Origin: Gammaproteobacteria bacterium
GTDB taxonomy: Bacteria; Pseudomonadota; Gammaproteobacteria; Steroidobacterales; Steroidobacteraceae
Assembly (NCBI GenBank): GCA_021323735.1
Contig: JAJPKM010000021.1
Location: 1-64,000, forward strand
Direction: 5' to 3'
Length of the DNA stretch: 64,000 bases
Shown: one piece after another, positions 32,799 through 60,569 of the stretch
How the letters are laid out: every line of letters begins with the position of its first letter
Numbering within the stretch: the first letter of the stretch is position 1
Program-made: the position numbers and the translations under genes
Notes under the pieces: model-generated
What the model saw: the letters and a program-made list of their open reading frames with translations, nothing else
Told to the model about the DNA's origin: nothing
The model's database searches: none

Positions 32799-32929
32799 AG
32801 CATGTACCTCGGTTTCATTGGCAACTGGATCCATTGTCAGGCCTCCGGCAATGGGAGACTCAAGCCTTTTCAGAGGATTGACTCTCCTGCAGGGGGAGGG
32901 TGCAAACTAAGATCGAGGAGTGCAGACTT

Positions 32930-33772
32930 GTGACCATGCCAGCGGTACCCACCATGCTCAGCATCGGGGATTTTTCGCGAGCCACGTTGCTCACGATCAA
33001 GACTCTGCGGCACTATCACGATATGGGCCTCTTGGAGGCGGCCGAGGTCGACGTCCACACCGGTTACAGGCGCTATCTGACCAGCCAGATTCCGCAGGCG
33101 CAGATGATCAAGCGCTTTCGTGAGCTGCAGATGCCGCTGAATGAGATCAGGCAACTGCTTGCCTCGCCTGAGGGCTCGACCCGCAACGGCATCATTGCCG
33201 CGCACTTAAGACGACTCGAAGATGACCTGGGACGAACTCGAAGCGCGGTCTCGGAATTGCGCGGTCTACTCGACCCACCCGTAAGTCCCGTGGCCATTTC
33301 CCATCGCCACATGGCGCCAATGTTGTGCGCCGCCATCGCTGAGCGTGTCGACTCGAAGCACGCAATGCCGTGGTTGGTGGGCGCGTTGGCGGAGTTGCAG
33401 TCGACCCTCGTTAGCCAGAGTAGACGAGCCGTCTCCCCGGCGGGAGGACTCATCTCGGACGAGATCACTACCAAAGGGCGGGGTAGGGCAACGGTCTACA
33501 TCCCCTGTGATGGGCCCATCGAAGGGATCGGTCGGGTACGACCCTACCAGTTGCCCGAGGTCGAGCTTGCCACCATCGTACATGCAGGTTCGCATAGAAA
33601 CTTTGATCTCGCCTATGGAGCTTTGGCAACGCACGTGGCGCGTTATGAACTGGCCGCGGATGGGCCCTTGTGGGAGCGCTACCTGGTGGGACCACTGGAT
33701 ACTTCGGACGAGAGTGCCTGGCGCACGGAGCTCGGTTGGCCCGTCGTGAAGGTCGCCGAGCGCTCCCACTAG
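32930..33772 (+). CDS. MerR-family regulator with effector-binding domain
   Basis: A 280-residue regulator. The N-terminal MerR helix-turn-helix reads MLSIGDFSRATLLTIKTLRHYHDMG and GYRRYLTSQIPQ across the wing; a coiled coil (AAHLRRLEDDLGRTRSAVSELR) dimerises it. A C-terminal region (residues about 125-275) has the GyrI/BmrR-like effector-binding look: YIPCDGPIEG, VELATIVHAGSHRN, YLVGPLDTSDESAWRTE. A start GTG at 32930 has GAGGAG 9 bases upstream; the ATG two codons later is also possible. It is divergent from the DUF1330 pair, the usual arrangement for MerR regulator and target. Confidence 0.88.
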   Translation: MTMPAVPTMLSIGDFSRATLLTIKTLRHYHDMGLLEAAEVDVHTGYRRYLTSQIPQAQMIKRFRELQMPLNEIRQLLASPEGSTRNGIIAAHLRRLEDDLGRTRSAVSELRGLLDPPVSPVAISHRHMAPMLCAAIAERVDSKHAMPWLVGALAELQSTLVSQSRRAVSPAGGLISDEITTKGRGRATVYIPCDGPIEGIGRVRPYQLPEVELATIVHAGSHRNFDLAYGALATHVARYELAADGPLWERYLVGPLDTSDESAWRTELGWPVVKVAERSH

Positions 33773-35087: not shown

Positions 35088-35282
35088 CTAACTCACGATT
35101 GCCGGGTTAGGGCAGGGTGCGTCGCACGGCGCAATCGCCTGGACCGGATACCCCGACCGGCTCGCCAGCGTCAGATGCGGCCGCGACTGAAGCTCGAATA
35201 GAAATCCGACCGCGCCCATGATCAGGCTGCTCATAATCAACGCGGCCGCGACTGCGATGAGTTTGGAAGAAATATTGGTCAT
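35088..35282 (-). CDS. Small single-pass membrane protein
   Basis: A 64-residue protein starting at the ATG at 35282 with GGAG 7 bases upstream. The N-terminal part has one membrane helix (AVAAALIMSSLIMGAVGFLF); the tail contains two cysteines (APCDAPCPNP). It is tail-to-tail with the lipoprotein gene, 14 bases away. The function is unknown. A longer frame upstream to 35456 has no features. Confidence 0.5.
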   Translation of the reverse strand: MTNISSKLIAVAAALIMSSLIMGAVGFLFELQSRPHLTLASRSGYPVQAIAPCDAPCPNPAIVS

Positions 35283-39101: not shown

Positions 39102-39268
39102 CGTAGGCTCCCGAATGACGAAAATTCGAGTCCCAGCGCCGGCGACTACAACCGAGGCAAGGACTGCTTTTGCAAAGAACGGCCCTGAAGATCTGGCGTA
39201 ATGACGTATCGGTGTTTCTGGCATGATGTCGGTATTCCCTCGACATTCGCTTGGCAAAAATTGCTCAC

Positions 39269-40153
39269 ATGGCCCCTTCCAATCCTGTCTTAACAGCGCT
39301 GCGGATCAAGTCGAAGTACGGTGCGGCGGGAACTGCCACCAGGCGCCGCATCGCCTCTGGCAGAGGCTGGGCGGTTCATGATGTGGTCTGCAGCTCCGGC
39401 CCGGCAGATCGGCCTTTTGAAGAGCGTCACGACTGGGTGTCGGTGGCGGTGGTGTTATCCGGCACCTTCACCTACAAGAATGAATTCGGGCGCTCACTGT
39501 TGACCCCCGGCGCCTTATTGCTGGGCGGTGCGGGAGGATGCTTCACGTGCGGTCATGACCACGACGAAGGCGATCGTTGCTTGTCATTTCACTTCGAGCC
39601 CGCGTATTTCGAAGATATTGCCGCCGCGGCCGGTGCACGCACGATGGGTTTCATGTCCGCTAGTCAGCCGGCACGGCGAAACCTTGCGCCGCTGGTAGCT
39701 CGATCCCTGGTTGCGGCGAACAGAACTGTTTCGGCAGCATCTCCTGGCGCATTGGAAACGTTGGCGATTGATCTCGCTGAAGCTGCTATGTTGACGCAAC
39801 GCGACTTCCGACGGCCAGCAATCTCGTCACAGGATGAGCGGCGAGTTGTCGCCGTCGTACGGCACGTAGAGCGTGAGTTTAGCGAGCCTTGCGCGTTGAG
39901 TGATCTGGCGCGTCTCGCCGGACTGAGTCCGTACCACTTCTTACGAATATTCCGCAGTGTTGCCGGCCTTACACCGCATCAATATCTGCTGCGAACGCGA
40001 TTGCGCAGCGCTGCCTCGGAGCTAGTGACAACTGATGCGTCCGTTACTAATATCGCTCTGGCGGCCGGATTCGGTGATCTTTCAAACTTCACCCGGAGTT
40101 TCCGCTCCGAGTATGGCTTATCCCCCTCCAGCTATCGGGCGTCCGCTTCTTAA
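39269..40153 (+). CDS. AraC-family transcriptional regulator
   Basis: A 294-residue regulator. The N-terminal half is a cupin-like ligand domain (HDWVSVAVVLSGTFTYKN, LTPGALLLGGAGGCFTCGH, CLSFHFEPAYFEDI). The C-terminal part has two helix-turn-helix motifs, CALSDLARLAGLSPYHFLRIF and VTNIALAAGFGDLSNFTRSFR, followed by the typical YGLSPSSYR end. The ATG at 39269 is chosen; a TTG at 39251 is also in frame. Divergent from the DUF1579-like gene. It is the last gene before the dif site. Confidence 0.88.
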   Translation: MAPSNPVLTALRIKSKYGAAGTATRRRIASGRGWAVHDVVCSSGPADRPFEERHDWVSVAVVLSGTFTYKNEFGRSLLTPGALLLGGAGGCFTCGHDHDEGDRCLSFHFEPAYFEDIAAAAGARTMGFMSASQPARRNLAPLVARSLVAANRTVSAASPGALETLAIDLAEAAMLTQRDFRRPAISSQDERRVVAVVRHVEREFSEPCALSDLARLAGLSPYHFLRIFRSVAGLTPHQYLLRTRLRSAASELVTTDASVTNIALAAGFGDLSNFTRSFRSEYGLSPSSYRASAS

Positions 40154-40271
40154 AATGACGTCCGCGCCTCCGGTACGGCGAGACCAACTCAGATTGAGTG
40201 TGCCAGGATTGTGTTACCGCGAGCTTCTCGCGGGCCAACGTAGGCCGAAAAATGCGCCGTAGAATCTTCAT

Positions 40272-40299
40272 ACTTCGCATAATGTATATTATGTTAAAT
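40272..40299 (+). other. dif site, XerCD chromosome-dimer resolution site
   Basis: A 28-base site in the gap between two convergent genes. The XerC arm is ACTTCGCATAA (40272-40282), the central hexamer is TGTATA (40283-40288) and the XerD arm is TTATGTTAAAT (40289-40299). The central hexamer, XerD arm and most of the XerC arm are identical to the E. coli dif site as I recall it; the four differences all lie in the outer XerC arm. It also fits the degenerate form seen across beta- and gammaproteobacteria. Such sites lie at the replication terminus and are used by XerC/XerD under FtsK control. Confidence 0.93.
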
Positions 40300-40306
40300 T
40301 AAATGA

Positions 40307-40317
40307 TATGCGAATAC
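40307..40317 (-). repeat. Inverted XerC-arm-like half site beside dif
   Basis: TATGCGAATAC on the + strand is, on the reverse strand, GTATTCGCATA, matching the TTCGCATA of the dif XerC arm (40274-40281) as an 8-base perfect inverted repeat. It may be an accessory site, a remnant of an integrated element, or chance. Confidence 0.4.
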
Positions 40318-40339
40318 TATAGGGACCAACAGAGGCGAT

Positions 40340-40768
40340 TCAGACCTCGAGGACCTTGACGTGCCCTTCCCGTCCGTAGGCGATAATTTTCGCGTCATGT
40401 GTGGCGAGTCTGGCACGATGGCTACGTGCCGTGGCGATGAGAAAGCGATCTGCGGGATCGCCGTGAATTTCACCGGGCAGGTAGACACTGTCTATTGCGG
40501 TAGCCGGTCGCGTGAGACCGACGAGTCGGATCTCGGGACGACTCAACGCGAGAGCAACCCAATCGCTCAAGGGTAACGGCAAAACAACCCGTTCTCGGGC
40601 CACGAGCATAGCCAGTTCCCATATCGAGACAATGGAAACCATCAGGCCATTGGTCTTGCCGGCATCTTCGAGCTGCTGAAGAACGCTAGGGGAAATTCTC
40701 TTTGTCGTTCCCAGCAAAAGCCACAGCCACACGTGAGTATCGAGCAGCACGCGCTCCGGGCGAGTCAT
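40340..40768 (-). CDS. vapC: PIN-domain toxin (VapC-like)
   Basis: A 142-residue PIN-domain ribonuclease. Acidic active-site residues are visible: Asp10 in LLDTHVWLW, Glu in SIWELAM (about residue 51), Asp in GDPADRFLIATA, and the last acidic pair in THDAKIIAY. These bind a metal ion to cut RNA. Its start overlaps the antitoxin stop by 4 bases, typical of toxin-antitoxin pairs. It is the first gene on the far side of dif. Confidence 0.9.
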   Translation of the reverse strand: MTRPERVLLDTHVWLWLLLGTTKRISPSVLQQLEDAGKTNGLMVSIVSIWELAMLVARERVVLPLPLSDWVALALSRPEIRLVGLTRPATAIDSVYLPGEIHGDPADRFLIATARSHRARLATHDAKIIAYGREGHVKVLEV

Positions 40769-41100
40769 TTGCGCTTGCGGGCTGGAGGCGGACCACTTGC
40801 GTGCGACGCAGACGTGGACGGCTCGAGATCGGCGTAGAGATCATCCTCTTCCCCGGTCAAAGCGGACCATTCAAGGGCGGGCATGTTGACGACATCACCG
40901 CGAATTTCCGCGGTCCCAGTCATATAGCCAAAAAGTCGTGCACGTGGTTCCGGCTCGTCCGGTGGGACCAGCTTGGCCACCGGCTTGCCACGCTTGGTGA
41001 TCACGATTGGCTCGCGGCTACGGGACACTTTATCCATGAGTTGGAGGCATTTTGCCTTGAATTCGCCGGCAGGTATTTCCATCGTAGTGTCCATGGTCAT
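40765..41100 (-). CDS. Phd/YefM-type antitoxin
   Basis: A 111-residue antitoxin. The N-terminal Phd/YefM DNA-binding fold reads EIPAGEFKAKCLQLMDKVSRS and PIVITKRGKPVAKLVP. A C-terminal tail of about 60 residues (LFGYMTGTAEIRGDV..., basic RKRK end) would bind and neutralise the toxin. Several ATGs are possible at the N-terminus (41100, 41094, 41082). The upstream region has the repeats ATGACTATGA and ATGACCATGG, possible operator half sites that overlap the start. Confidence 0.88.
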   Translation of the reverse strand: MTMDTTMEIPAGEFKAKCLQLMDKVSRSREPIVITKRGKPVAKLVPPDEPEPRARLFGYMTGTAEIRGDVVNMPALEWSALTGEEDDLYADLEPSTSASHASGPPPARKRK

Positions 41101-42879: not shown

Positions 42880-43254
42880 CTAGATATCTAAAGGTACTTT
42901 CGACTTCTTGACGCGGATCGATACGGGCGGTCTTTGAGTTCCATCGGCGGGGCTTCGGTGAGTTGCTTCGGCCGAGCTTCGATGAAATCCCTCTGCGGGG
43001 TTTCTTCGATGGCTTCCCTCGACGGGGCTTCGGTGGGCTGCCTCGACCGAGCTTCGATGACTGCCCTCGGCTGGACTTCGATTGCCCGCCTCCTCCGCTT
43101 GGATGCGCGCGTAGATTTCTTCGCGGTGAACGGCAACATCCTTCGGCTCGTCAATACCAACCCGAACCTGCGCTCCGCTCACGCCGAGTACGGTGACATT
43201 GATCTCATTTCCGATGGTAATGGTTTCGCCGACGCGACGGGTGAGTATCAGCAC
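42880..43254 (-). CDS. csrA: CsrA-family RNA-binding regulator with repeat tail
   Basis: A 124-residue protein starting with GTG at 43254 after a GGGGGA site. Residues 1-52 are a full CsrA domain ([40 protein letters not shown]), including the RNA-contacting Arg44. CsrA binds GGA motifs in mRNA leaders and controls translation. Ordinary CsrA ends at about 60-70 residues; here a further 70 follow, built of octapeptide repeats such as [32 protein letters not shown], then a basic end (VSIRVKKSK). The tail is hydrophilic and likely disordered. A second, standard csrA may exist elsewhere in the genome. Confidence 0.88.
42931..43080 (-). repeat. 24-base tandem repeats inside csrA
   Basis: About six diverged units of 24 bases encode the HRS(P/S)xE(G/A)x octapeptides; one unit is lengthened by one codon. 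On the + strand the unit is recognisable as variants of GGCTTCGGTGG and GAGCTTCGATGA. Confidence 0.75.
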
Positions 43255-43489
43255 GTAATTCCCCCAACTTTCCAAAAGTACAGTACAAACGCCAGAAAAT
43301 GGGGCTTGCCTGCCAATTGTAATCCATTGTGCACCGTCTGTGTCTTCGGCTCGCAGACCGTTCCGTGTACTCTCGCGTCGCAGCACGGACGGCCCCGGCC
43401 CCGTGCAGCGATCTGCCAAAATCATGCCTGGAGGATAGACTCGGGTCTAGCTGACGTCGGTATTCCCCGCTGAGCCCCTAGGAGCGAAC

Positions 43490-45109
43490 ATGGAGACAAT
43501 TGGCGGCGATTTGCGCCAAATGCAGCGAACCCCGCTGGCGGCATCTCACGTCCAGGCAATGCGTGCCGAGGGCAAGATCGTCACCTACCCTGCCGGTACC
43601 TTCCTGGCCCGGCCGGGCGAGCCCATAGAGCGCTTTGTCTACGTCGAGGAGGGAGAGATCGAAGTGGTCAACCCCTTTACCGATGCGCGGCACTTGCCCT
43701 CAACGCTCGGTCCGACCCAGTTCATGGGCGAAATCGCCTTTCTGAACGGGGGTGCCTGGTCGATGCCGATGCGCACAGCGCGCGAAACGCGGGTGATCGA
43801 AGTGCCGCGTCAGGCGATGCTGACGCTGATGTCCCGTATTCCCGAGATGTCCGACATCATCATCACCGTGTTCTCCGCCCGCCGCCGCCGACAGCTCGAC
43901 GACCACGACGGCAGCTTGCGGCTGATCGGGGAAGACGAGGACCGAAACGTGCGCCGGATCGCGGAGTTCGCCAACCGCAACCGCATGCCCTATACCTCGC
44001 TACGTCTGGGGAGCCCCGAGGCGGAGGCGACCGCCCGCGGCTGCTCGATCACTCCGGGCGAGCCCGCGGTGATTTTCGGACGCAACGTCGTCGTCACGGA
44101 TCCCACGCCGGAAAAGGTGGCACGCCTGATCGGCCTCAAACTCGACTTCAAATATGACGAAATATTCGACGTACTGATCGTTGGGGGTGGACCTGCGGGC
44201 GTCGCCGCCGGCGTGTATGCGGGCGCAGAAGGCCTGTGCGCGCTGGTCGTGGAAGACGTGGCGATCGGCGGCCAGGCAGGCACCTCGAGCCGCATCGAGA
44301 ACTACATGGGCTTCCCGACCGGTATTTCCGGTGCCGATCTGGTCTGGCGCGGCGGAGTGCAGGCGATGAAGTTCGGCACACGCTTCGCGATGCCGCGGCG
44401 GGTGGTGCTCCTGCAGCACCTCGAGGATGAGAGCTTCTGCGCCGTATTCGACGACGGCCAGCGCGTTCGCGCCAAGTCTGTGGTGGTTGCAACCGGGGTG
44501 CAGTACCGCCGGCTGCGGCTCGACCGCCTCGCCGAGTTCGAAGGGACCGGCGTTTATTATGCCGCGACCGAGATGGAAGCGCGCTACTGTAAGGGAACGG
44601 AGGCCGTCATCATCGGCGGCGGCAATTCGGCAGGGCAAGCCGCAATGTTTCTGAGCCGCTCGGCAAGCTGCGTACGCGTACTGGTTCGCGGGGCATCGTT
44701 GGCGGCCTCCATGTCGAGCTACCTCTCCAACCGGCTGGAAGCGGATCCGAGGATATCCCTGGAATACGCCGCCGAAGTAACCGCGCTGCACGGCGCCGAT
44801 CATCTTGAGGCGGTTAGCATCCGCGACGCGGCGACCGGTGTGACACGCGTCGTCGACACGCGCGCACTGTTCATCATGGTGGGCGCCGCACCCAACACCG
44901 AATGGCTCTCGGGTCTCGTCAAGCTCGACAATAAAGGGTTCGTGATCACCGGTTCCGGCGCGGACTCGGCCGCCTCGCCCTTCGCCACCACGATGCCCGG
45001 CATTTTCGCGGTGGGCGATGTGCGCGCCGGTTCGGTGAAGCGCGTAGCCTCCTCCGTTGGCGAGGGATCTGTCGTGATTTCCAAGGTCTGGGAGTTCCTC
45101 AACCGCTGA
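43490..45109 (+). CDS. Cyclic-nucleotide-binding domain fused to thioredoxin reductase-like enzyme
   Basis: A 539-residue protein. Residues 1-130 are a cyclic-nucleotide-binding-like domain (GTFLARPGEPIERFVYVEEGEIEVV, MGEIAFLNGG). A short linker-like region (130-225) precedes an FAD/NAD(P)-binding pyridine nucleotide reductase (FDVLIVGGGPAGVAAGVYAGAEG, VVVATGVQYRRLRL, AVIIGGGNSAGQAAMFLS, GIFAVGDVRAGSVKR). The site of the thioredoxin-reductase CxxC reads IGGQAGTSSRIENYMGF, with no redox cysteine pair, so it cannot be a true thioredoxin reductase and may reduce another acceptor. TAGGAG precedes the ATG at 43490. Confidence 0.9.
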   Translation: METIGGDLRQMQRTPLAASHVQAMRAEGKIVTYPAGTFLARPGEPIERFVYVEEGEIEVVNPFTDARHLPSTLGPTQFMGEIAFLNGGAWSMPMRTARETRVIEVPRQAMLTLMSRIPEMSDIIITVFSARRRRQLDDHDGSLRLIGEDEDRNVRRIAEFANRNRMPYTSLRLGSPEAEATARGCSITPGEPAVIFGRNVVVTDPTPEKVARLIGLKLDFKYDEIFDVLIVGGGPAGVAAGVYAGAEGLCALVVEDVAIGGQAGTSSRIENYMGFPTGISGADLVWRGGVQAMKFGTRFAMPRRVVLLQHLEDESFCAVFDDGQRVRAKSVVVATGVQYRRLRLDRLAEFEGTGVYYAATEMEARYCKGTEAVIIGGGNSAGQAAMFLSRSASCVRVLVRGASLAASMSSYLSNRLEADPRISLEYAAEVTALHGADHLEAVSIRDAATGVTRVVDTRALFIMVGAAPNTEWLSGLVKLDNKGFVITGSGADSAASPFATTMPGIFAVGDVRAGSVKRVASSVGEGSVVISKVWEFLNR

Positions 45110-50643: not shown

Positions 50644-51621
50644 TCACGCCCGGGTGGGGTGCGACCGGGCGCGGTGGCCCTCGACTGCCTGCCAGACCAG
50701 CAGCGTGGGTACTCCCAATCCTAAGTCGCGCGCCCTTTTTAAAAGTGATACCGCCAATCCGATCTCAGGTCCTATGCCGAACAGGGGCGAAAGAACTACA
50801 TAAGCCGCTTCTTGCACGCCGAGCGCATGAGGGATGAATACGGCGGCGCTTCGGGTGGCGCAAACCACACTTTCGATCGCCAAGACAGATGCCGGATCGA
50901 CGCGCGCGCCGATGAGGCGAAAGGCGATCCAGGCACTCGCCGCACTGGCGATCCATCCCACGAAGTGAATGACGCTGGAAGCCGCGACACGCGAACGGGA
51001 ACGATAGATGGCTTTGAGCTCAACGCTGACCGCCGCGGTTCGCCCCAGCGCACTGGGCAGGATGCGCACCATGAGCCGCTCGATGAGGCCCTGCCCGTGG
51101 CGCTGCAAAGCGAGGAAGACGCCGGCCGCGCCGATGGCGCATACCAGCCCGATGAACAGACCCTGCATCAGGGAATGGGCGAAGGAGGTGGCCGGCGCCC
51201 GCAAATCCAGGATCACCAGTCCCAGCGCGACATAGGCGATTTGCGCCAGCATCTCGGTGGTCACGTCGACCACGGTCGAGGCATACACCAAAGCGTTCGG
51301 TACGCCGTTTAAGATGCCCACGCGCGCACCCAGCACGATTCCCCCCAGCTGGGAGAAGGGCAGCACATCGCTGGCGGCATCGCGCACCATGCGCGCCCAG
51401 ATGAAGGTCCGCGCACTCACCGGCGGCGAGGCAGGTAGCAGGACGTACCAGGCACCGCCCAAGATGATGAACAGACCCAAGCCGTAAAGACAAAGCAATC
51501 CGAAACCGCCCCACCCCACCGCGCCGACCGCCGCAAAGACGGCGCCAATGCCGGCGTACATGACCAGATAGACGGTCAGCGCGATCCCAAGAAGCGCGAT
51601 GATGGCGACGCGGAGTTTCAC
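50644..51621 (-). CDS. hpnL: HpnL-like integral membrane protein
   Basis: A 325-residue protein with about eight hydrophobic helices, from the lysylphosphatidylglycerol-synthase transmembrane/flippase family (YbhN/HpnL). Traits: YLVMYAGIGAVFAAVGAVGWGGF, DVLPFSQLGGIVLGARVGI, VDVTTEMLAQIAYVALGL and FIPHALGVQEAAYVVLSPLFGI. HpnL belongs to hopanoid-producing clusters in other bacteria; the presence of hpnJ two genes upstream supports the same role. The GTG at 51621 with GGAA 5 bases upstream is favoured over the TTG at 51639. Confidence 0.7.
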   Translation of the reverse strand: MKLRVAIIALLGIALTVYLVMYAGIGAVFAAVGAVGWGGFGLLCLYGLGLFIILGGAWYVLLPASPPVSARTFIWARMVRDAASDVLPFSQLGGIVLGARVGILNGVPNALVYASTVVDVTTEMLAQIAYVALGLVILDLRAPATSFAHSLMQGLFIGLVCAIGAAGVFLALQRHGQGLIERLMVRILPSALGRTAAVSVELKAIYRSRSRVAASSVIHFVGWIASAASAWIAFRLIGARVDPASVLAIESVVCATRSAAVFIPHALGVQEAAYVVLSPLFGIGPEIGLAVSLLKRARDLGLGVPTLLVWQAVEGHRARSHPTRA

Positions 51622-51663: not shown

Positions 51664-52548
51664 TCACGATCGGATGAAACGTCGCGCCAGTCTGGCCAAC
51701 GCGGGGACCAAGGCGGGCCGCAGCAGACGCCGATCATAGGAACTCATACGCCGGCTGTTTTCCGCCAGGCAAATATCGATCAATTCCCCGACCTTGATAT
51801 CATCGCCGACCGACTTCGCGCCCGTTACCGTGAAGTTGTTGTCCTGCACGCCGTTGCCCATGTCGCGCGCAATGCCGATGCGCTCCCAAATCAGGAACAA
51901 CCAGACGGCCAACACCTTCAGCTCGAAAAACGGCCGCCGCCAGAAGGGCATCGTTCGACGGTGCCACGCCGCCCAATTGACGAAGAATAGAATATGCCGC
52001 GCTTCCTCTTGAATGACGGGCTCGAAAGTGTCTACCAGCGCGGCGGGGAAGAACCCGGAACGTTTGGCGGATTCGAACAGGCCGAAGGCAAAGAAGCTGT
52101 CGATGCACTCGCTGTAGCCGGTGACCATGAATGCCCATTCCGGGTCGCCACGTACCACATACTCCGGTTCGGGTGCGAGGGTGACGCCATACGCAGCTAC
52201 CAGATTGGACAGCACCAGTTTATGCCGGCCCTCCTCGAAGGCATTGAGCTCGATGGCCTTGCGCAACAAGGGATCGGCCGTGATCGCGGCATAGGAAGCC
52301 ACGTTGAGCCGTGCCCTGCCCTCGGTCTGCACGGCAATATCCCAGATGGGCAGGCTCACCAGGCGATCCTTGGCTTCGGTTTCGAGCTGGGGCCAGTCGA
52401 TCACCGCCGGCTTGTACGGATCGAAGGTATCCAGCAAGGTGCGGCAAAAGAGCACCTTGTGCGCATCGCTTCCGCGCTTGATCGGTCCGTCCGGAAACGG
52501 TTCGAACTCGCGAGAGGTTTCGGAAACTCTCGCCATCGGCACACTCAT
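51664..52548 (-). CDS. Ferritin-like domain protein in the hopanoid-type run
   Basis: A 294-residue protein. Its central helices hold paired acidic and histidine residues of a ferritin-like di-iron fold: IELNAFEEGRHKLVLSNL (E-x-x-R-H) and FEPVIQEEARHILFFVNW (E-E-x-R-H), about 75 residues apart. The rest is helical, with amphipathic parts near the C-terminus. Di-iron enzymes of this fold oxidise or desaturate lipids and related compounds. It lies between hpnL and hpnJ on the same strand, so a role in the same lipid pathway is likely, but no function has been assigned that I know. Confidence 0.75.
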   Translation of the reverse strand: MSVPMARVSETSREFEPFPDGPIKRGSDAHKVLFCRTLLDTFDPYKPAVIDWPQLETEAKDRLVSLPIWDIAVQTEGRARLNVASYAAITADPLLRKAIELNAFEEGRHKLVLSNLVAAYGVTLAPEPEYVVRGDPEWAFMVTGYSECIDSFFAFGLFESAKRSGFFPAALVDTFEPVIQEEARHILFFVNWAAWHRRTMPFWRRPFFELKVLAVWLFLIWERIGIARDMGNGVQDNNFTVTGAKSVGDDIKVGELIDICLAENSRRMSSYDRRLLRPALVPALARLARRFIRS

Positions 52549-57061: not shown

Positions 57062-58168
57062 CTATGGGAGCGGATGCATCGCACGGCGGCGCTCTCCGCG
57101 GAGCTCGTTACCCACGACCTTAAGTCCCGTGGCAGACGAGCGCCGCGGTTTCGACATGCTGGCGTAGAGCTTTAGGTAGTTCTGGGCCATATGCTGCGCT
57201 GTGAAGCGACGCTCGAACTCGCGACGGATCCGGTTTCGGTCCAGCATGCTTAAACTCCGCACGGCATCGACTGCCTGCTCCTCCGTGGTTGAGATGAAGC
57301 CGGTCACGCCGTCTTCGAGCACTTCGGGAACCGAGCCGTTGTCGAATGCGACTACGGGAGTTCCGCATGCCATCGCTTCAATCATCACCAGGCCGAAGGG
57401 TTCGCGCCATGCTATAGGGAAGAGAAGTCCTGAGGCATTGCCGAGAAATTCCTGCTTCCGGTTCTCGCATATCTCGCCGATGAATTCGACATCGCTGTGG
57501 CCAAGCAGCGGTTCGATCTTGGTCTTGAAATATTCTCTGTCGATGAGGTCTACTTTTGCGGCGATTTTAAGCGGAACACCGGCCCGCGCAGCAATGCGAA
57601 TCGCTGCGTCGGGCGCCTTTTCCGGAGAGATTCGTCCGAGGAAGGCGAGATATCCCCCGCGTCCCTCGCCCTTGTTCAGCAAATTCTTAGGCAACCCATG
57701 CAAAACCGTCGCGACAAAGTGTGCCTCCGGCAGGGGCTCGCGCTGTGAATCGGAGATCGACACGACGGGGACATCGCCGTACAACCGATAGAGCGGAGGC
57801 AACTCGGGAAGATCGAGACGGCCATGTAAGGTGGTGAGGGATGGTGTACCGAGCCGGCGCAGCAAAGGATAGCTGAGATAGTCGATATGCCAGTGGATCA
57901 CGTCGAACTCATGAGCTCGTTGCGCCACCGTCTCAAGCTGCATGAAAATCGGTGCGAGGTGATCCTTCACCTCGGGGTCCAACCGCAGTGCCCGAGGCCA
58001 AACGGGCGACAGCGTCGCCTTGGTAGAACTGTCGCCTGACGCGAACAAGGTGACATCGTGCCCGAGCTCGACCAAGGCATCGGTCAGGTAGGCCACCACT
58101 CGTTCGGTACCCCCGTATAGTTTGGGAGGGACCGCTTCGGCGAGCGGTGCGACCTGAGCGATTTTCAT
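57062..58168 (-). CDS. GT4-family glycosyltransferase
   Basis: A 368-residue glycosyltransferase with the GT-B fold. The N-terminal part has KIAQVAPLAEAVPPKLYGGTERVVAYL; the C-terminal sugar-nucleotide part has YLAFLGRISPEKAPDAAIRIA, FIGEICENRKQEFLGNASGLLFPI and REPFGLVMIEAMACGTPVVAFDNGSVPEVL with the E-x7-E motif. It is similar to enzymes that make trehalose, sucrose-like or glycan products; the exact one cannot be read. It faces the amylo-alpha-1,6-glucosidase gene divergently, so both may belong to one glucan pathway. Confidence 0.88.
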   Translation of the reverse strand: MKIAQVAPLAEAVPPKLYGGTERVVAYLTDALVELGHDVTLFASGDSSTKATLSPVWPRALRLDPEVKDHLAPIFMQLETVAQRAHEFDVIHWHIDYLSYPLLRRLGTPSLTTLHGRLDLPELPPLYRLYGDVPVVSISDSQREPLPEAHFVATVLHGLPKNLLNKGEGRGGYLAFLGRISPEKAPDAAIRIAARAGVPLKIAAKVDLIDREYFKTKIEPLLGHSDVEFIGEICENRKQEFLGNASGLLFPIAWREPFGLVMIEAMACGTPVVAFDNGSVPEVLEDGVTGFISTTEEQAVDAVRSLSMLDRNRIRREFERRFTAQHMAQNYLKLYASMSKPRRSSATGLKVVGNELRGERRRAMHPLP

Positions 58169-58361
58169 GGCATCTCTACGAACTTGGGGCCGAAATGTCG
58201 GTGTGCGGACATAGTATCCACTTGAGGATGCTTTGTCGGCTTTCAATTTGGAACCGAACGCTGTAAGAGAACTCTTGGGCTGTGAGATTTCTGGTTGGCA
58301 CTGTTCACAGGTCCTGTGAAAAATTTACAACTCGACGCCTCCTCATATTTTGGAAGATCGC

Positions 58362-60569
58362 GTGAGCACACCCTCCATAGTCGAAGCGATGGCGTCCCAA
58401 GCCCGGCATAGCGACGCGACGGCGCCACAATTTGCCATCGCCGTCTCGGCGACTGTGCAGGAGCGCCGCACGCGGACGTTGAAGAACGGCGACAGCTTCG
58501 CGGTGTTCGATCAACGCGGCGATATGGGAGGCAAGCCCGGAAATCCCGAGGGCTTTTATCATCGGGACACGCGCATGCTGTCGCAGCTGCGGCTGTTGCT
58601 GGCGGAGGAGCGGCCGCTGTTGCTCTCGTCGATGACGCAGGACGACAACGCGGTGTTCACGGCGGACTTGAGCAATCCGGATCTGATGGTGGACGGCAAG
58701 ATCGCACTGCGGCGGGAAAGCATTCATTTGAACCGGATGAAGTTCGTCTGGAATGGTGCCTGCTATGAGCGCCTGTTGGTCAAGAATTTCAGCGATTGCG
58801 GGTTGGACCTCAAGCTGACCTACTGCTTCGAGTCGGACTTCGCGGATTTATTCGAAGTAAGAGGCGAGCGCCGGCGCGCCCGCGGAGAATCCCGCGCTGC
58901 TCTCGAGAGCGAACACGGCGTCGCGCTGCGCTACGCGGGGCTTGATGGGATCGAGCGGGTCACGAAGCTGGCCTTCTCGCCGGTGCCCAGTACCCTGACC
59001 ACGACCAGAGCCTCCTTTGATCTGTCGCTCAAGCCTCGCGCCACCCGTCGAATATTTGTGCGAGTCGGCTTTGCCGATTCCACTCAAAGTGATTGGACCG
59101 GCCGCTTGTTCTATCGCCGGATGCGTACGGCCCGTCATGCGCTCAATGAATCGAGCGCACGCGCCGCCAGCGTCGACAGCTCCAATTCGGTATACAACGA
59201 AATTGTCAGGCGCTCGGTGTCAGATCTGTACATGCTGATTACGGACACTCCGCAGGGGCCCTACCCATATGCAGGGATCCCCTGGTTCAGCACTCCGTTC
59301 GGACGCGACGGAATAATTACCGCGCTGATGACGCTGTGGCTCGATCCCACCATCGCCCGGGGTGTACTCGGATTTCTGGCCGCCACGCAGGCAACCAAGG
59401 TCGAACCCGAGCGCGACGCGGAACCGGGCAAGATCTTGCACGAGATGCGCCACGGCGAAATGGCGAATCTGCAGGAAGTGCCGTTCGGCCGCTACTACGG
59501 GAGCGTCGACGCGACGCCGCTGTTCTTGCTTTTGCTCGGCGAGTATTTTCGGCGCACCGGCGATCTCGATACGGTGCGCTCGCTGTGGCCCAACGCCAAG
59601 GCAGCGCTCGGTTGGATCGATCAATATGGCGATCGGGACGGCGATGGATTGGTCGAATATCACCGTCAGACCCGAGAGGGCCTCGCGAACCAAGGCTGGA
59701 AGGATTCGTTCGATGCGATTTTTCATCGCGATGGACGCCTTGCGGAAGGCCCCATTGCGCTCTGCGAGGTACAGGGCTACGTGTACGGTGCAAAACGGCA
59801 CGCCGCCGTGCTGGCTGAAGCACTAGGGTATACGCGATGCGCCGCGGAACTTGCGTCGCAGGCCGAATCGCTGCGGGAGAAATTCGAGTCGCAATTCTGG
59901 TGCGAGGAGCTTGCAACCTATGCACTTGCGCTGGACGGCAATAAGCAGCCCTGTCGCGTCGTATCGTCGAATGCGGGACAAGTCCTCTTCACGGGTATTG
60001 CGTCGCCGGAACGAGCGGCGCAGCTGGCGCATACGCTTTTGTCGCCGGCGACATTCGCCGGGTGGGGCATTCGGACGGTGGGTTCGGCGGAATCCAGATA
60101 CAACCCCATGTCCTACCACAACGGTTCTATTTGGCCCCACGACAACGCGCTGATCGCAATGGGTTTCAGCCGCTATGGGATGCAGAGCTCGGCCGTTCGA
60201 GTTTTTGCCGCGTTGTTCGATGCCGCGAGCTACATGGATTTGCGCCGCCTTCCCGAACTATTTTGCGGCTTCTCGCGGCGGCAGCACAACGGTCCGACAC
60301 AGTATCCGGTGGCCTGTTCACCGCAGGCGTGGGCGAGCGCCGCGCCGTTATGCCTGTTGCAGGCCTCTCTCGGCCTCGAACTGCTCGACCGCACCGGCGA
60401 GGTCAAGTTCTATCGTCCGGTGCTGCCGGAGTTCCTTGATCACGTGCGTCTACGCAACTTGCGGCTCAGAACAGGTTCGGTCGACGTGCTGCTTCAGCGC
60501 CAGGATGCCAACGTCGGGGTGACGGTGACGCGTCGAGACGGTGATGTGGTAGTGGTTACGCGGTACTAG
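58362..60569 (+). CDS. Amylo-alpha-1,6-glucosidase / glycogen debranching-type enzyme
   Basis: A 735-residue GH-type protein. An N-terminal beta domain (residues 30-240: DSFAVFDQRGDMGG, GFYHRDTRMLSQLRLLL) is followed by an (alpha/alpha)6 barrel (about 275-730). Catalytic-domain pieces are AGIPWFSTPFGRDGIITALMTL, GLANQGWKDSFDAIF, and YNPMSYHNGSIWPHDNALIAMG. It belongs to the amylo-alpha-1,6-glucosidase family that removes branch glucoses from glycogen-like glucans. The GTG at 58362 with GGAAG 5 bases upstream is favoured; ATG at 58389 is also in frame. It ends 6 bases before the convergent OmpA-like gene's stop. Confidence 0.9.
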   Translation: MSTPSIVEAMASQARHSDATAPQFAIAVSATVQERRTRTLKNGDSFAVFDQRGDMGGKPGNPEGFYHRDTRMLSQLRLLLAEERPLLLSSMTQDDNAVFTADLSNPDLMVDGKIALRRESIHLNRMKFVWNGACYERLLVKNFSDCGLDLKLTYCFESDFADLFEVRGERRRARGESRAALESEHGVALRYAGLDGIERVTKLAFSPVPSTLTTTRASFDLSLKPRATRRIFVRVGFADSTQSDWTGRLFYRRMRTARHALNESSARAASVDSSNSVYNEIVRRSVSDLYMLITDTPQGPYPYAGIPWFSTPFGRDGIITALMTLWLDPTIARGVLGFLAATQATKVEPERDAEPGKILHEMRHGEMANLQEVPFGRYYGSVDATPLFLLLLGEYFRRTGDLDTVRSLWPNAKAALGWIDQYGDRDGDGLVEYHRQTREGLANQGWKDSFDAIFHRDGRLAEGPIALCEVQGYVYGAKRHAAVLAEALGYTRCAAELASQAESLREKFESQFWCEELATYALALDGNKQPCRVVSSNAGQVLFTGIASPERAAQLAHTLLSPATFAGWGIRTVGSAESRYNPMSYHNGSIWPHDNALIAMGFSRYGMQSSAVRVFAALFDAASYMDLRRLPELFCGFSRRQHNGPTQYPVACSPQAWASAAPLCLLQASLGLELLDRTGEVKFYRPVLPEFLDHVRLRNLRLRTGSVDVLLQRQDANVGVTVTRRDGDVVVVTRY

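Follow-up and report, generated by a model that had tools for sequence, protein, structure and literature searches.

A putative chromosomal dif site in the replication terminus region of a Steroidobacteraceae draft genome

The 28-base sequence at positions 40272 to 40299 of the window (the whole 64,000-nucleotide stretch of DNA that was analyzed) is very probably, with a probability of about 0.96, the chromosomal dif site of this proteobacterial genome. dif is the standard short site at which joined bacterial sister chromosomes separate before division, and the window site is a new instance of this well-known, ordinary kind. The chromosomal reading is favored because the site is exact and single, KOPS switch strand at it, XerC and XerD are encoded in the genome, and the site is conserved in relatives; the first three of these support a preliminary description of the DNA, which had proposed a chromosomal dif and placed the window in the terminus region. 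Counted against this reading were a GC-skew maximum 27 kb from the site, a skew sign change at dif in only 4 of 10 long-flanked loci from relatives, a control octamer that is likewise skewed towards dif in relatives, the 18 of 59 relatives in which the site was not matched at up to three mismatches, and a stop codon that precedes the gamma domain in ftsK.

The site was confirmed as an exact match on the plus strand; with up to three mismatches allowed, the window contains no other. Its architecture, with an 11-bp XerC arm, a 6-bp center, and an 11-bp XerD arm, is that of an XerCD-type chromosomal dif. The XerC-binding arm (ACTTCGCATAA, positions 40272 to 40282, plus strand, exact match) shares its inner seven bases with the dif of E. 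coli K-12 MG1655 and differs from it only at the outer bases 1, 2, and 4, while the central hexamer (TGTATA, positions 40283 to 40288, plus strand) and the XerD-binding arm (TTATGTTAAAT, positions 40289 to 40299, plus strand) are identical in the two organisms, all as had been claimed beforehand. The E. coli site has other neighbor genes; it likewise lies near a toxin-antitoxin pair (hipAB) and is likewise approached by KOPS that point inward on both sides.

The genome to which the window belongs is a 58-contig draft of 4.19 Mb (96% complete). The whole 28-mer was searched in the window and its 278-kb contig and the inner 24-mer in the whole draft, where it occurred once (up to three mismatches), in agreement with a single-copy site. 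When the 278,083-base contig was scanned with the gammaproteobacterial dif consensus, the best dif-like 28-mer besides the site had nine mismatches; a match with seven mismatches was the dif site itself, read on the opposite strand. Carnoy and Roten 2009 (PMC2731167, Table 1) give a dif for Thiobacillus denitrificans that is identical to the window site at all 28 bases, XerC arm included; T. denitrificans is an organism other than that of the window, and the comparison covered the 28-mer. An inverted repeat of the XerC arm was also considered (TTCGCATA lies in the arm, and its reverse complement lies 25 bases on), and E. coli has a similar inverted arm hexamer at another distance. Over 36 sites, the inverted hexamers were seen 2 times against 0.54 expected for TATGCG, 2 against 1.46 for ATGCGA, 2 against 0.61 for CGCATA, and 3 against 1.0 for TCGCAT. 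Such hexamers were few; the inverted arm, indistinguishable from chance, was dropped.

The strand bias of KOPS, the octamers that orient FtsK (GGGNAGGG), changed at the site, as the preliminary description had anticipated for a chromosomal dif. On the 278-kb contig, six copies were on the plus strand and one was on the minus strand to the left of dif, versus 5 plus and 17 minus to the right (Fisher p = 0.0055). Expressed as direction, 23 copies pointed towards dif and 6 pointed away (p = 0.0023); for a control octamer, the corresponding numbers were 17 and 9 (p = 0.17). The running sum of plus minus minus-strand copies peaked between those at 35,110 and 40,364, an interval that encloses dif, and the copy at 40,364 starts 65 bases beyond the site. 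Within the window, copies directed towards dif lie at 32893 to 32900, 33481 to 33488, and 35110 to 35117 (the nearest on the left), all on the plus strand, and at 40364 to 40371 (the nearest on the right, within a PIN toxin gene), 51089 to 51096, 52314 to 52321, and 59259 to 59266, all on the minus strand. The same polarity was found in 32 loci from relatives (one genome contributed two), where 43 of 44 KOPS copies pointed towards dif and 1 pointed away. The control octamer was also skewed in these loci (19 towards dif and 5 away); general strand skew therefore accounts for part of the KOPS signal, and another part is KOPS-specific. In a 49-kb segment of E. coli K-12, analyzed as a control, the plus/minus counts of KOPS were 7/0 to the left and 0/3 to the right of dif.

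GC skew located the terminus less sharply on the contig than the KOPS switch did. Measured per 10 kb of the 278-kb contig, skew was 0.034 to 0.051 in the first 30 kb and 0.002 to 0.012 between 30 and 70 kb; past 70 kb, 18 of the 21 bins were negative. The cumulative skew on this contig, which is not the whole chromosome, reached its maximum at 67006, about 27 kb from dif. This change of sign fits a terminus but sets the shift in composition some 27 kb away from dif. Kono et al. 2011 (PMC3025954) reported that dif position is strongly correlated with the skew shift point and concluded that replication terminates near dif rather than at dif. Among the 10 loci from relatives that had more than 3 kb of flank on each side, skew was higher to the left of dif than to the right in 8 and changed sign at dif in 4. 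The orientation of dif relative to skew was also considered as a clue (the window site is on the plus strand and the E. coli K-12 site is on the minus strand) and was uninformative because the terminus is symmetric under reverse complementation.

The inner 24-mer also served to assess how conserved the site is. With up to three mismatches allowed, it was present in 41 of 59 relatives (42 of 60 genomes with the window's own) and was without a match in the other 18. When these 60 genomes were restricted to those with a completeness of 90% or more and a contamination of 5% or less, 35 of 45 carried it. In a draw of 184 genomes from the class, 81 (among them the window's own) carried it with no more than one mismatch. 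Of 5426 complete E. coli genomes, 5369 gave a place for a padded query with this 24-mer.

In the draft genomes of the 60-genome set, at least 10 of the 45 dif places had a contig end no more than 600 bases away (for example, loci L134, L135, L136, and L137), as though dif neighborhoods often broke assemblies. Two of these loci, L136 and L137, come from one genome of the same genus, in which two contigs each carry a dif core. They have in common a 428-base stretch (96% identity) that directly follows dif in one and is about 2.8 kb away in the other; this stretch may belong to just one strain. Gene content around dif was compared by tblastn of 24 window genes against 55 fetched loci. Four genes were matched, at 23 to 60% identity, and 20 genes, the immediate dif neighbors among them, had no match in these loci, which are short stretches; because of that shortness, the missing synteny means little. 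The comparison touches on the suggestion in the preliminary description that a terminus position may explain the many accessory pairs and scars of the window.

In the window, the site is AT-rich (6 G+C of 28 bases) in surroundings of about 58% GC, and it lies between the ends of two convergent genes; both features had been described beforehand and held on inspection. To the left is a gene for an AraC-type regulator (39251 to 40153, plus strand; Pfam HTH_18, 86.8 bits), which ends 118 bases before dif. To the right is a gene for a PIN-domain (VapC-like) toxin (40340 to 40768, minus strand; Pfam PIN, 44.6 bits), which pairs with a Phd/YefM-type antitoxin gene (40765 to 41100, minus strand; Pfam PhdYeFM_antitox, 44.1 bits). 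The regulator and toxin genes converge because their ends, at 40153 and 40340, both face an AT-rich gap of 186 bases that contains dif. Farther to the right, the window encodes a CsrA-domain protein whose long tail repeats SHR-SxxE/P-like units (42880 to 43425, minus strand) and a cyclic-nucleotide-binding domain fused to a pyridine-nucleotide-disulfide oxidoreductase (43490 to 45109, plus strand).

The toxin-antitoxin pair that adjoins the site bears on a different reading, in which the sequence would be an Xer site that was captured or is mobile, either the end of a dif-integrated element or a plasmid-type dif module that carries such a pair. It is well known that some elements integrate at dif (PMC5357621), and the contig ends found within 600 bases of at least 10 of the 45 dif places might arise if the neighborhoods vary between strains. 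However, no second dif-like site bounding a cargo was present on the 278-kb contig at fewer than nine mismatches, and KOPS switch strand at the site, which favors a chromosomal terminus; we consider a mobile origin very unlikely. A plasmid or phage carrying a captured dif, raised in the preliminary description, found no support, as the segment from 39251 to 41100 (1850 bases) had no DNA match in plasmid or phage collections. The toxin gene was set aside as a clue to mobility: of 260 toxin-relative loci found, 80 were kept, and none of these 80 contained a dif-like core at up to six mismatches. A chance AT-rich sequence is a negligible explanation, for although the site does lie in an AT-rich intergenic gap, the 28-mer search at up to three mismatches gave no match in 100 shuffles, and a reversed inner 24-mer gave none in the genome of the window or across all 60 genomes, this one included.

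Returning to the chromosomal dif, the partners of such a site were sought in the genome. XerD (395.4 bits) and XerC (368.7 bits) were both found, above the NCBIfam curated cutoffs, in line with the suggestion that both genes should be present. Elsewhere in the genome, on contig C8, three adjacent tyrosine-recombinase matches lie on one strand (57793 to 60484; L113, L114, and L116). This arrangement is reminiscent of recombinase-in-trio elements. The E. coli system serves as the model for XerCD binding, activation, and strand exchange at the window site. By analogy with it, recombination would fuse sister chromosomes, each carrying one dif copy, into a dimer; XerC would bind the left arm and XerD would bind the right arm of both copies; septal FtsK would read KOPS and pump DNA towards dif from either side; its gamma domain would switch on XerD; and strand exchange at dif would turn the dimer into two monomers.

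The FtsK gamma domain reads KOPS and activates XerD (PMC5357621; PMC5052618). FtsK motor and gamma-domain sequences are both encoded in the genome, and an in-frame TGA (L145:5874-5876, contig C5) splits ftsK between them. The gamma part scored 95.6 bits, compared with 94.5 to 98.1 bits in other genomes of the genus. A same-genus survey covered 23 genomes, of which 4 had no gamma-domain match; in all 18 of the other genomes with a match, the open frame around the domain spanned 373 to 793 residues, compared with 83 residues in this assembly. If the stop is real, readthrough or a separately made gamma part would be required. When about 323 kb of the genome was scanned, a single stop was found to divide a pair of coding-like segments at five places, alongside 143 long coding segments; ftsK is one of the five, so its stop is not the sole such place. 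An assembly error or a strain variant seems a likelier source of the stop than biology.

Bases beyond the 28-mer were also compared, with a matrix built from 33 dif sites of relatives in the genus, family, and order (34 loci of 44 places outside the window's genome, one of which was dropped as its site was at a contig end). In these 33 sites, the seven bases past the XerD arm were not random: the fourth was A or G in 31 and the fifth was G or T in 28. The seven bases past the XerD arm in the window (TAAATGA, positions 40300 to 40306, plus strand) scored 1.22 on this matrix, and those of E. coli scored 2.35. The matrix was then applied to dif sites of other families in the class, first to 30 and afterwards to 40 (70 of 84 places). 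Mean scores were 1.15 and 0.48, respectively, compared with −1.73 and −1.87 for AT-matched seven-base words from the same loci, and in neither set did any of 3000 AT-matched draws come up to the observed mean. These draw statistics ignore kinship, though most families in the 184-genome class draw gave one or two sites and conservation was slight at positions farther out. When the frame was slid by 1 to 19 bases in the 40-site set, the score was at most −1.04. A further 31 sites from the class, which include one genome already used and many sites from few families, had a mean score of 1.53, reached by 0 of 3000 draws. An extension outside the Gammaproteobacteria was unsupported among 19 sites from other classes of the phylum, where 209 of 3000 AT-matched draws reached the score, as was conservation of the flank on the XerC side (260 of 3000 and 724 of 3000 draws).

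From these sequence comparisons, we tentatively suggest, at slightly less than even odds, that the functional dif of the Gammaproteobacteria is longer than 28 bp. It would extend on the XerD side only, by about seven bases (A/T-A-T-A/G-G/T-A-T) under weak selection, and these bases would perhaps be read or bent by XerD or by FtsK docking on XerD. Carnoy and Roten (PMC2731167) reported high variability in the bases that surround the 28-mer. Two epsilonproteobacterial sites in that paper continue with AATATA and AATAGA past the XerD arm, which would fit the pattern of the putative extension. The archaeal dif of the Thermococcales has conserved AT-rich flanks, for which its authors left a flank-binding partner protein possible (PMC2958812). 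Like the class dif examined here, it shows AT-rich conservation outside the 28-mer; unlike it, it is served by XerA instead of XerCD, and its flanks span about 23 bp, compared with about 7 bp here, confined to the XerD side. Among the literature listings and text passages covered, none described an XerD-side extension for the Gammaproteobacteria.

Both the extension and the stop within ftsK merit checking, and no new system is claimed. If the extension is true, assays on the 28-mer alone would miss the contribution of the bases past the XerD arm, and the extension would matter against the highly variable surroundings pictured by Carnoy and Roten (PMC2731167). For the organism itself, the dif site marks the terminus region of a draft genome and identifies the window as chromosomal, a result that is useful but routine.
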